Source: Desmonostoc vinosum HA7617-LM4
GTDB taxonomy: Bacteria; Cyanobacteriota; Cyanobacteriia; Cyanobacteriales; Nostocaceae
NCBI GenBank assembly: GCA_019359515.1
Contig: JAHHHC010000024.1
Location: 32,492 to 96,491, forward strand
DNA: 64,000 nucleotides
Direction of reading: 5' to 3'
Each line of letters starts with the position of its first letter. Position 1 is the first letter of the stretch. The position numbers were made by a program, and so were the translations under genes. Shown one piece after another: positions 28,586 through 32,257 of the stretch. A model generated the notes under the pieces. The model worked only from the letters and a program-made list of their open reading frames with translations, was not told the DNA's origin and searched no databases.

Positions 28586-30514
28586 ATGCTCATCGGCGCA
28601 ATTCTTCGGAATCGCTACAAAATAATCAGACTATTGGGAAGCGGCGGTTTCGGTGACACATACCTAGCAGAAGATGTGGATTTACCGAACCATCCGGTGT
28701 GTGTTGTTAAACACCTCAAACCAAAAGATTCCTCGCTTTCCACATTACAAATAGCCAGACGACTATTTGACAGTGAAGCACAGACACTATATAGATTAGG
28801 CAACAACCACGACCAAATTCCGCGACTATTCGCCCACTTTGAGGAGAAAGGTGAATTTTATCTAGTGCAGGAATTTGTTGATGGAGAAGACTTGAGCCGA
28901 GAAATTATTCCTGGTAAGCGGTTGAGTGAGAGCGAAGTCAAAAAGTTATTACAAGACATACTACAAGTCTTAGCCATCGTCCATCAACAAAATATCATTC
29001 ACCGAGACATCAAACCGCAAAACTTAATGCGGCGTCGGCAAGACAGCAAAATAGTACTGATAGACTTTGGTGCAGTCAAAGAAATCAGTACCTTAGTAAT
29101 GAATGCCCAAGGACAAAGTAGCTTTACAGTTGCAATAGGGACAGCTGGTTATATGCCCAGCGAACAGGCAAACAGCGACCCCAAACTAGCCAGCGATATC
29201 TATGCAGTAGGGATGTTGGGAATACATGCCCTGACGGGTTTACAGCCTCATGAGTTGCCCAAAGATCCCACCAACGGCGAAGTGATTTGGCGCAATTGGG
29301 CAAACGTCAGCGAGAACACAGCAGAGATATTAACCAAGATGGTGAGTTATCACTTCAACCAGCGCCATCGCACAGCAACAGATGCACTGCAAGCATTAAC
29401 GCCAGCACCACCACCGCAAAAACCAGCGCCAGCACCACGACAAAAACCACAACCAACGCCACCAATATCATCACAGCAGTCATCAACGCCCGACATACCA
29501 AGACGGCGAGTAATTCAGACTATGGGGTTATTAGGTGTTGGGTTTGGTTTAGCAATAGCAGCAGAACGTTTATTATTTCGCCCGAATGCAGGAGAAAGCC
29601 CTATTATTGACGCTGGTACAACCACAACACCACCAGAACCAGAACCCCCCATTACCCAGTCTCCAACTTCCAAAAGTTCAACACCTAAACAAGGACTAAC
29701 CTTACAAACCTCTCAATTTGAGGTTGTAACGGTGGATGTGCGGGGAAACATCGCTAACCGCCGCAACCGTCAGGCGAAATACTTCGTTGAAGACTTGGGA
29801 GGTGGCGTCACTTTAAATATGGTGCAGATACCAAGCGGAACTTTTACAATGGGTTCACCAGCAGGGGAGAAGGAACGAAGCTCAGATGAAGGGCCGCAAC
29901 ATCAAGTAACAGTCCCTGAATTCTTCATGGGTAAATATGAAGTCACGCAGGCACAGTATCAAGCAATCATGGGTAATAATCCCTCCAATTTCAAAGGAGA
30001 AAAAAGACCTGTAGAAAAGGTGAGTTGGAATGATGCTGTAGAATTTTGTAAAAAGTTGAGCCAGAGGATGGGACGCACCTATCGACTACCCAGCGAAGCT
30101 GAATGGGAATATGCTTGTCGTGCTGGAACCACCACACCTTTTTATTTTGGTGAAACTATTACCAGTGATTTAGCCAACTACAACGGCACTTATACTTACG
30201 CCTCAGCATCAAAAGGTCAATATCGTCAGCAAACAACAGAAGTAGGCATTTTTCCGCCCAATGCCTTTGGTTTATACGATATGCATGGCAATGTTTGGGA
30301 ATGGTGTCAAGATTATTACCATGATAATTATCAAGGCGCACCCACTAATGGTAGTGCATGGTTCAATGATAATGATAATCAATATCGTCTGCTGCGCGGT
30401 GGTTCTTGGTACAACGACCCAGAGAACTGTCGCAGTGCGTTCCGCTTCAGGAACGGAGCCGACTACCGTCTCGACGGCATTGGTTTTCGTGTTGTCTCTG
30501 TCGTTCCCGCGTGA
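28586..30514 (+). CDS. Ser/Thr kinase-FGE/lectin-fold fusion, DGR target
   Basis: 642 residues. The kinase domain (about 10-270) has GSGGFGDTY, catalytic K42, HRDIKPQN (139-146) and DFG (160-162). A Pro/Gln-rich linker precedes a hydrophobic stretch (IQTMGLLGVGFGLAIAAERL, about 310-330), a likely membrane span. Residues ~395-642 form a formylglycine-generating-enzyme/sulfatase-modifying domain, a C-type lectin-like fold (MVQIPSGTFTMGS, YDMHGNVWEWCQDYY, LRGGSW). Its last 42 codons are the DGR variable repeat. The outside lectin-like domain probably binds a ligand and controls the kinase. A 14-bp palindrome (TTAGGTAAACCTAA, 28573-28586) overlaps the start codon. Confidence 0.93.
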   Translation: MLIGAILRNRYKIIRLLGSGGFGDTYLAEDVDLPNHPVCVVKHLKPKDSSLSTLQIARRLFDSEAQTLYRLGNNHDQIPRLFAHFEEKGEFYLVQEFVDGEDLSREIIPGKRLSESEVKKLLQDILQVLAIVHQQNIIHRDIKPQNLMRRRQDSKIVLIDFGAVKEISTLVMNAQGQSSFTVAIGTAGYMPSEQANSDPKLASDIYAVGMLGIHALTGLQPHELPKDPTNGEVIWRNWANVSENTAEILTKMVSYHFNQRHRTATDALQALTPAPPPQKPAPAPRQKPQPTPPISSQQSSTPDIPRRRVIQTMGLLGVGFGLAIAAERLLFRPNAGESPIIDAGTTTTPPEPEPPITQSPTSKSSTPKQGLTLQTSQFEVVTVDVRGNIANRRNRQAKYFVEDLGGGVTLNMVQIPSGTFTMGSPAGEKERSSDEGPQHQVTVPEFFMGKYEVTQAQYQAIMGNNPSNFKGEKRPVEKVSWNDAVEFCKKLSQRMGRTYRLPSEAEWEYACRAGTTTPFYFGETITSDLANYNGTYTYASASKGQYRQQTTEVGIFPPNAFGLYDMHGNVWEWCQDYYHDNYQGAPTNGSAWFNDNDNQYRLLRGGSWYNDPENCRSAFRFRNGADYRLDGIGFRVVSVVPA

Positions 30515-30515
30515 G
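30386..30515 (+). repeat. DGR variable repeat (VR)
   Basis: Aligns without gaps to the template repeat at 32128-32257 (offset 1742). From 30389 on there are 14 differences, all at template adenines (A to T, G or C); no other base differs. One further A-to-T lies at 30388. Altered codons are 609, 611, 613 (silent), 619, 621, 624, 627, 629, 630 and 631 of the kinase-lectin protein. The 3' part from ATTGGTTTTCGT to the stop is identical in both repeats and should include the initiation-of-homing sequence. Confidence 0.97.
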
Positions 30516-30577
30516 GACTCCCTTGCCCTATACTCTTTTGCCCTTTTGCCCTTTACACCTCTTTACTCTTTTTTCTG

Positions 30578-30608
30578 TCCGCCGCAGGCGGATCAAAAAT
30601 TTTTTTTA
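30578..30608 (+). terminator. Hairpin plus T-run downstream of VR
   Basis: TCCGCC-gca-GGCGGA (30578-30592) followed by a run of eight or nine T. It can end the kinase transcript. A GC-rich hairpin a short distance after the VR is also a feature of phage and bacterial DGRs that helps target recognition, so both roles are possible. A pyrimidine-rich tract precedes it. Confidence 0.7.
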
Positions 30609-30701
30609 CATTTAAGCGATTAAAAGCAAATTTATTGTAGAGTTGCGAGAAAAGATAACATAAGTAAGTTAACTTTAAAAAAAGTATAACACGTTTTCAT
30701 C

Positions 30702-31049
30702 ATGAGTGAATTACCTATCATTCAAAAAACTTATGACTTAATTAAATGGTATGTACCTATATTAAATCGCCTGCCACATAACCACAAATTTCTCTTGGGT
30801 GACAGAATTATAGAAGGATTATACGACCTTTTAGAAGAATTAATCAAAGCCCGTTATTCTAGAGAGAAACTCACCCAACTAGAAGCTATAAACAGCAAAT
30901 TAGATATTTTACGTCATCAAACAAGATTATTGTTAGATTTTGAGTTAATCAAATCTGATAGATATGAGTACATAGGAAAATTAATCAATCAAATTGGAAT
31001 TGACTTAGGCGCTTGGATTAAACAGCAACGGCAATCAATAACAAAATAA
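30702..31049 (+). CDS. avd: DGR accessory variability determinant (Avd)
   Basis: 115 residues, all-helical. IIQKTYDLIKWYVPILNRLP, then HKFLLGDRIIEGLYDLLEEL, gives the four-helix-bundle pattern of Avd. Avd forms a pentamer that binds the reverse transcriptase and the template RNA and is needed for mutagenic retrohoming. It is rich in Arg/Lys on several helix faces, consistent with RNA binding. The RT start codon follows after a single base, so translation is probably coupled. Confidence 0.9.
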   Translation: MSELPIIQKTYDLIKWYVPILNRLPHNHKFLLGDRIIEGLYDLLEELIKARYSREKLTQLEAINSKLDILRHQTRLLLDFELIKSDRYEYIGKLINQIGIDLGAWIKQQRQSITK

Positions 31050-31050
31050 C

Positions 31051-32109
31051 ATGAAACGTTACGGCAATTTGTGGACAAAAATTATAGACTTTGAAAACTT
31101 ACTAACTGCTGCCAAAAACGCACAAAAAGGAAAGCGTTATAGAGAAAACGTTTTAGCATTCAACTACAATTTAGAATCAGAACTTGAAAAACTAAAAATA
31201 AAATTAGAGTCAAAAACATATATTCCCGGTAGTTATAAAACCTTTACAATTGTAGAGCCAAAACCGCGTATGATATCTGCTGCACCATATAGAGATAGAG
31301 TAGTACATCATGCCTTATGTAATATCATCACACCTATTTTCGAGCGCACATTAATAGCTGATACCTACGCTAACCGCCTTGGCTTTGGCACTCATCGCGC
31401 CTTACGACGTTTTACAGAATTTTCTCGTTCCAGTCGTTATATTCTTCAGTGCGATATTAGAAAATATTTTCCCAGTATTGACCATAATATTTTAAAAACT
31501 ATAGTACGACGGAAAATAAAATGTCCAAATACACTTTGGCTTATAGATACAATTATTGATAATAGTAACGAGCAAGAAAATATAGTAGAGTATTTCCCAG
31601 GAGATGATTTGTTTGCACCGATACAACACAGGCGAGGTTTACCAATTGGCAATCTGACAAGTCAGTTTTTTGCAAATATTTATTTAAATAGTTTTGACCA
31701 TTTTGTTAAAGAAAAATTACAAGCACGAAAATATATCAGATATGTAGATGATTTTGCGATCTTCGCTGAAGATCGCAATTTTTTAGTAGATGCTCGTCAA
31801 GCAATAGAAGAATATTTAGTAACTTTAAGGTTAAAAATTCATCCTGTAAAGAGTCAGTTGTTCGAGACAAAACACGGAGTAAATTTTTTAGGTTTCCGTA
31901 TATTACCAGACTATATTCGTGTCCGCACAGAAAATTTACGTCGATCACGGCGCAGATTGCGACAAATGCAAATAGATTATGCTCAAGGTAAAATTAATCT
32001 AGAACAAGTATTACAAAGCTTACAAAGCTGGGTAGCACATTTAGAACACGGGGATACCTGGCATTTACGAGATAAGATATTCGCTACTCTCGTATTTTCG
32101 AGAGTGTGA
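31051..32109 (+). CDS. DGR reverse transcriptase
   Basis: 352 residues. Motifs in order: CDIRKYFPSID with D135, the DGR-specific GLPIGNLTSQFFANIYLN (about 196-213; other RTs have a QGxxxSP form here), the catalytic IRYVDDFAIF (YVDD 231-234), and VNFLGFRI. No maturase, endonuclease or integrase domain is present. The enzyme copies the template RNA and misincorporates mainly opposite adenines, together with Avd. The template repeat starts 19 bases after its stop codon. Confidence 0.96.
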   Translation: MKRYGNLWTKIIDFENLLTAAKNAQKGKRYRENVLAFNYNLESELEKLKIKLESKTYIPGSYKTFTIVEPKPRMISAAPYRDRVVHHALCNIITPIFERTLIADTYANRLGFGTHRALRRFTEFSRSSRYILQCDIRKYFPSIDHNILKTIVRRKIKCPNTLWLIDTIIDNSNEQENIVEYFPGDDLFAPIQHRRGLPIGNLTSQFFANIYLNSFDHFVKEKLQARKYIRYVDDFAIFAEDRNFLVDARQAIEEYLVTLRLKIHPVKSQLFETKHGVNFLGFRILPDYIRVRTENLRRSRRRLRQMQIDYAQGKINLEQVLQSLQSWVAHLEHGDTWHLRDKIFATLVFSRV

Positions 32110-32127
32110 AGAAGGGACAGGCACTTC

Positions 32128-32257
32128 CGACTGCTGCGCGGTGGTTCTTGGAACAACAACCCAGAAAACTGTCGCAGTGCGAACCGCAACAGGAACGAAG
32201 CCGACAACCGTAACAACAACATTGGTTTTCGTGTTGTCTCTGTCGTTCCCGCGTGAG
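32128..32257 (+). ncRNA. DGR template repeat (TR)
   Basis: A non-coding 130-bp copy of the 3' end of the kinase-lectin gene, read in frame as the peptide SWNNNPENCRSANRNRNEAD. It is rich in AAC codons, which place mutable adenines at the first two codon positions; mutation of AAC can yield many residues but no stop codon. Of 31 adenines between the invariant GGTTCTTGG and ATTGGT, 14 differ in the VR. The repeat is transcribed with avd and RT, by inference from its position. Confidence 0.97.

Follow-up and report, generated by a model that had tools for sequence, protein, structure and literature searches.

A complete diversity-generating retroelement in Desmonostoc vinosum whose single template very probably serves three kinase-FGE genes

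How a diversity-generating retroelement (DGR) finds targets remote from its reverse transcriptase (RT) is an open question, and a locus of the cyanobacterium Desmonostoc vinosum HA7617-LM4 bears on it. We analyzed a window of 64,000 nucleotides (contig JAHHHC010000024.1, positions 32,492 to 96,491) that contains a target gene, VP1, with a variable repeat (VR1) at its 3' end, followed by avd, an RT gene and a template repeat (TR) (see the table). This DGR is complete in genes and repeats, and its one template has very probably been copied with adenine mutations into three kinase-FGE genes, two of them on other contigs. The evidence consists of the parts themselves, adenine-biased differences between the repeats, two remote variable repeats (VR2 and VR3) and a step in sequence identity at one of these.

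VR1 and TR align pairwise over 130 bp without gaps and differ at 15 positions, every one of which is an adenine in TR (8 A>T, 6 A>G and 1 A>C). TR contains 33 adenines and 97 other bases, and the hypergeometric probability that 15 of 15 differences fall on 33 adenines among 130 positions is 6e-11, ruling out chance similarity. Our realignment confirmed the pairing and the adenine-only pattern proposed in the initial annotation; the count given there, 14 of 31 adenines in a core plus a fifteenth at the 5' edge, is obtained when A3 and A129 are omitted, the figure for the full TR being 15 of 33. The 5'-edge A>T change shows T in all three VRs of the genome; we therefore read it as a difference that has probably become fixed at the tract edge, and not as a product of mutagenesis. 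The same annotation ascribed nine amino acid changes and one silent change to AAC codons. Nine residues do change, eight of them through AAC, but the ninth (residue 24, GAA to glycine) has another origin, and the codon table gives two silent changes, at residues 13 and 1 of the repeat. Eleven AAC codons contain 22 of the 33 TR adenines, and mutation of the adenines in AAC cannot produce stops. Across the three VRs, 26 of the 33 adenines are changed at least once and 16 codons differ from TR through adenines.

Table. Positions of the parts of the DGR within the window
Feature	Position	Strand	Basis or remark
Target gene VP1	28586..30514	+	Open reading frame; Pkinase aa 11-269 and FGE-sulfatase aa 411-637 (Pfam); carries the variable end
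VR1, variable repeat	30386..30515	+	15/33 template adenines changed, 0/97 other bases
Pyrimidine tract after VR1	30516..30577	+	Pyrimidine share 0.77
GC hairpin TCCGCC-GCA-GGCGGA	30578..30592	+	T-run 30600-30607 follows; present also behind VR2, VR3 having one of the same form and TR none
avd	30702..31049	+	PF22296; NF033474
DGR-type reverse transcriptase	31051..32109	+	352 aa, no internal stop
Inverted repeat at RT gene 3' end, 5' of TR	32086..32105	+	Read directly from the sequence
Motif GGGACAGGC, 5' of TR	32114..32122	+	GGGRYAGG comparison across loci
TR, template repeat	32128..32257	+	Alignment with VR1; genome-wide TR search
Structured RNA 3' of TR (Sp-like)	32258..32407	+	Helices 32259-65/32307-13, 32276-84/32289-97, 32328-35/32342-48, 32361-73/32395-407; covariation, Rfam RF02921

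Avd and a DGR-type RT had been placed between the repeats, and both frames are indeed open and full length. Avd scores 137.7 bits against NCBIfam NF033474 (cut-off 80). The RT, with its catalytic YxDD in an open frame, carries LPIGNLTSQ and YVDD, which we take to be DGR/RT motifs, and its best PDB match is 8ub7 (named 'Reverse transcriptase', E 2e-49), presumably the Bordetella phage DGR RT. There is no DGR-RT model among the NCBIfam matches of the RT, the nearest, TIGR04416, being under its cut-off. The closest RT among the named genomes, that of Goleter apudmare (locus L054), is 83% identical, with a dN/dS of 0.08 that comes from this one pair and from synonymous sites near saturation. In VP1, the FGE-sulfatase domain reaches residue 637 of 642, and residues 462-636 match Treponema denticola variable protein 1 (PDB 2y3c, E 3e-27), which would make VP1 a C-lectin-like target gene with VR1 at its 3' end. 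Taken together, the Avd score, the match to 8ub7, the adenine-only differences and the low dN/dS bear out the initial description of an intact, apparently once-active DGR. The extent first assigned to it, 28586 to 32257, takes in the parts then named, but the element reaches further, with a structured RNA ending near 32407 and two more VRs outside the window.

These two VRs emerged from a check set beforehand, a genome-wide search for further matches to TR. Across the whole assembly (7.2 Mb, 94 contigs), TR matches five places: TR itself, VR1, one site each on C24 (VR2) and C11 (VR3), and a short stretch on C14. VR2 is changed at 18 of 33 adenines and 1 of 97 other bases, and VR3 at 20 of 33 and 3 of 97; the share of differences at TR adenines is therefore 18/19 and 20/23, compared with 15/15 for VR1. 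The corresponding proteins, VP2 and VP3, are kinase-FGE proteins like VP1. Five FGE paralogs (C6, C14, C26, C81 and C90) were rejected as TR targets, with 29-46 non-A differences of 97 and no identity step.

One might suppose that the remote VRs are alike only through duplication of the target gene after VR1 had been rewritten, with no homing in trans. VP2 would suit such a history, being identical to VP1 at 289 of the 300 nt before the VR (96%). VP3 is identical at only 229 of those 300 positions (76%; 55 of 100 third codon positions), yet exactly at the repeat identity jumps to 93 of 96 non-A positions (97%) and 36 of 38 third positions, as predicted for replacement of the VR by cDNA from one TR. 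Furthermore, VR2 and VR3 have adenine changes that are absent from VR1. We thus consider this history very improbable and, on the VP3 identity step, reject the view that the remote VRs arose by duplication alone. Several observations nevertheless weigh against the copying of one template into all three genes. As VP2 is a recent duplicate of VP1, VR2 alone is no proof of trans homing, and the final 24 nt of VR3 keep all three of its non-A differences, a sign that homing into VR3 was partial or not recent. Some base choices recur, with T at positions 3 and 25 of every VR, and shared descent or selection could account for this. Finally, the evidence comes from the assembly of one strain, and homing may no longer occur.

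TR is flanked by a motif on one side and a folded RNA on the other. For comparison, 66 RT loci were collected, 50 of which gave a TR/VR-like pair, some plainly other repeats (such as L068); later counts cover L054-L096 plus the window's own locus. The motif GGGRYAGG precedes TR in 30 of 40 loci and is absent from all 59 stretches upstream of VRs; the automatically assigned TR is doubtful in some of the ten loci without it (L067, L068, L092). The inverted repeat at the end of the RT gene is likely the 5' part of the template RNA. On the other side, a folded RNA follows TR. In an alignment of thirty TR 3' flanks, hand-picked from the 40 counted, 27 of 40 pairs show two-sided changes compared with 16.9 in shuffles, and none of 500 shuffles reaches any of five measures. 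Paired cells make up 95.6% over the 30 rows, compared with 83.7% in shuffled and 28-45% in slid versions, although part of the latter contrast is built in because the structure derives from the same rows. In our reading, this RNA forms the 3' portion of the DGR template RNA, by analogy with the spacer RNA of phage BPP-1 as described in the portion of PMC12875486 consulted.

The Rfam family RF02921 (RT-14) has the same main helices over 32258-32407 and covers the window RNA at all 144 positions. Its score there is 35.9 bits, under the cut-off of 48.1, and an Rfam scan at family cut-off gave no match in the window. At the RF02921 cut-off, 0 of 14 loci matched in one scan and 1 of 60 genomes in another; among relatives, L057 scores 45.5 bits and L096 passes with 52.0. 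By this measure the window RNA appears to be only a distant relative of RT-14, scoring below family membership.

Behind each of the three VRs, in turn, stand a pyrimidine tract, a GC hairpin and a T-run. VR1 and VR2 share the hairpin TCCGCC-GCA-GGCGGA, while that of VR3 is TCGCGC-AAA-GCGCGA; our hairpin rule is passed by the C14 target and finds no match behind TR or the paralogs on C6, C81, C90 and C26. The tract-plus-stem pattern as typed occurs genome-wide only after VR1 and VR2, the VR3 stem being different. We regard the hairpin as a likely target mark for homing. The main competing explanation, to which we give a substantial but minority weight, is that hairpin and T-run are transcription terminators of the target genes with no role in homing. 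The site lies after the stop codon, with a GC stem and a T-run on the coding strand, as a terminator would. In the wider set, the short-loop and T-run rule, which was defined after its rows had been viewed, is passed by only 28 of 64 VR flanks (14 of 64 with the tract), and the plain best-stem score does not separate VR from TR flanks (p 0.16; both above shuffles). However, the same rule is passed by 0 of 40 TR flanks, these counts resting on related, non-independent sequences, and among the 28 VR hairpins, 23 have a loop that reads GNA or GNNA on one strand, compared with 46 of 228 controls. The controls are the GC hairpins on both strands of the window and of 20 further 20-kb pieces (928 kb of strand in total); 6 of them have a T-run, VR1's included, and only VR1's has the tract too, so T-run hairpins are rare in this genome sample. 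The absence of the hairpin after the FGE paralogs C6, C81 and C90 also argues against simple terminators, though it is missing after C26 too.

Does the RNA always travel with an RT? We searched the RNA model R1 and the RT in 60 genomes, including the window's, and counted RNA copies of at least 100 bits as strong. The RNA occurs in 31 of 60 genomes and the RT (E 1e-60) in 18; within 1 kb upstream of the 40 strong RNA copies, the RT is full in 24 cases, partial in 3 and absent in 13. In the stretches around these 13, tblastn at E 1e-3 gave neither RT nor Avd. Six are compact VR-TR-RNA cassettes behind a target gene, with VR and TR starts 316-536 bp apart and no avd or RT remnant in the VR-TR interval at E 0.01. 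Their differences are mainly at adenines: 14/27 adenines and 2/102 other bases in L200, 11/23 and 7/106 in L201, 13/30 and 3/130 in L203, 11/30 and 1/95 in L214, 8/28 and 0/97 in L215, and 10/24 and 3/100 in L216. In four others (L206, L207, L209 and L217) the FGE gene continues almost directly into the DGR RNA, a junction resembling the scars expected of VR-TR recombination. The remaining three (L204, L205 and L213) have TR and RNA with no clear paired target, L205 showing a weak pair. As with the hairpin counts, these classes rest on related sequences that are not independent.

A whole RT is present elsewhere in genomes G011, G017 and G030, whereas in G005, G008 and G060, which hold three of the six cassettes, no full-length DGR RT was found. 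In G030, a single-contig genome whose only DGR RT found lies 1.4 Mb from the cassette, the VR agrees with the cassette TR at all 86 non-A positions but with the RT-linked TR at just 65 of them, which identifies the local TR as its template. The cassette VR in G017 likewise matches its own TR better than a linked one (91/94 versus 66/94 for one linked TR, 83/86 versus 55/86 for another). Both an RT acting in trans and a very recent loss of the RT would fit these cassettes. We propose only tentatively that the cyanobacterial DGRs considered here form a trans-acting two-part system, in which one RT-Avd source serves scattered targets, three in the window's genome, and relatives carry non-autonomous target-TR-RNA cassettes. 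A literature search of titles and abstracts gave nothing on RT-less cassettes of this kind, and they are the novel lead of this work.

RT loss also bears on whether the window element is a fossil, once active and now silent, its three VRs frozen variants. The genome holds two other DGRs, both decayed, and 16 of the 40 strong RNA copies have no full RT within 1 kb, so loss is common. One relic, on C14 (L012:8448-15416), has a NACHT-GUN4-FGE target and a full Avd, with an RT that matches only to residue 233 of 352 and whose frame ends before YVDD; a TnpB-like fragment (PF07282) is nearby, and no TR or Sp-like RNA was found there. In the other, on C26 (L120:6202-9645), a CHAT-NB-ARC-FGE target is followed by an avd start of about 33 codons joined directly to RNA, so that this relic lacks the remainder of avd, the RT, TR and the beginning of the RNA. 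No whole DGR-type RT other than that of the window was found in the genome. The window RT and Avd frames are open, however, the RT dN/dS is low, the RNA fold is kept, VR1 has no non-A difference, and a relative of the element in cultured Nostoc punctiforme gives low-level adenine variants, according to the part of PMC12691664 drawn on here. We think it less likely than not that the element is silent.

Comparison of related loci suggests that TR changes are carried over into VRs. Among 140 VR-pair rows from 51 locus pairs with TRs less than 25% different, the VRs show as many non-A differences as the TRs in 69 rows and depart from that number by at most two in 125, an agreement partly favored because each VR had been chosen for its resemblance to its own TR, in rows that share loci. 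At shared adenines, the VRs differ in 2394 of 3927 cells (61%). Between the window and L054, both the TRs and the VR1 pair differ at 16 of 89 non-A positions, and the latter also at 15 of 29 shared adenines.

As a mechanism, we envisage that TR and the folded RNA after it would form a template RNA bound by RT and Avd, which would be reverse-transcribed with errors opposite adenines. The cDNA would then replace the VR in any gene offering VR homology plus the 3' tract and hairpin, and the varied codons at the end of the FGE/C-lectin-like domain may alter what the predicted kinase senses. The target is most likely used as a diversified ligand-binding head on a kinase. DGR targets have been proposed as antigen sensors, in the portion of PMC10907252 considered. 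The VP1 kinase domain scores 350.7 bits against the PADLOC PD-T4-6 models over residues 5-280, which is compatible with a role in conflict but no demonstration of one, as many kinases match such models. Between the kinase and FGE domains, at about residues 309-333, VP1 has a hydrophobic stretch preceded by three arginines; no such stretch is seen by eye in VP2 or VP3, so the targets may differ in location. Directly before VP1, at 28206-28656, lie two frames with identical first 23 residues (MKARSHFCQSDRSRRITPPPCLI) about 260 bp apart, which amounts to a short direct repeat ahead of the target gene. Elsewhere in the genome, an RT gene (RVT_1) stands immediately before cas1 (L008:1363-3539, on C64), a CRISPR-associated RT, and broken RT-like frames, presumably akin to a group II intron RT, occur at L009:1196-2262 (C46) close to an HNH-like frame.

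What makes the element valuable is that one TR is laid out with three targets of unlike gene structure, that its RNA is defined, that a candidate target mark exists and that it led to the RT-less cassettes. As the genome also contains two naturally dead copies, homing in trans becomes directly testable. Should the RT-less cassettes of relatives prove functional, it would be the template-RNA gene that spreads, served by a shared RT.

The element is an intact member of a well-described kind, the cyanobacterial DGRs with a kinase-FGE target, as far as the parts of PMC7517822 covered here describe them. That survey (Vallota-Eastman 2020) reported 58 DGRs in 52 cyanobacterial genomes, with the kinase as commonest target domain and 76 remote targets, and noted decayed copies and adjacent IS200/IS605 transposases. 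In its kinase-CLec DGRs, Avd, RT and TR likewise stand beside a gene with a C-terminal lectin-like VR, with a kinase partner and remote targets, and this core shows no difference from the window element; cruciforms are merely suggested there as activators of remote targets, and the RNA after TR is undescribed in those parts. The Bordetella phage BPP-1 DGR, in the portions of PMC3240598 and PMC12875486 used, shares RT, Avd, TR, VR, adenine mutagenesis, a folded RNA 3' of TR and a hairpin 3' of VR, although the window TR lies after the RT. The window hairpin, with a 6-bp stem and a 3-nt loop 62 nt after VR1, differs from those of phage DGRs, described there with 7-10 bp, a GRNA tetraloop and a distance of 4-34 bp. 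Nanoarchaeal DGRs, in the sections of PMC4372165 considered, also have hairpins, with three-base GRA loops; theirs lie inside the target gene, whereas those of the window's genome follow the stop codon and have loops GCA, GCA and AAA. The nearest precedent that we met for the cassettes is the DGR1 RNA of Nodularia spumigena, present in 70 copies away from the RT gene (PMC3610870, in part). Those copies are near-identical and were read as non-coding insertions, whereas the RT-less cassettes stand behind a target gene and differ between VR and TR mainly at adenines.

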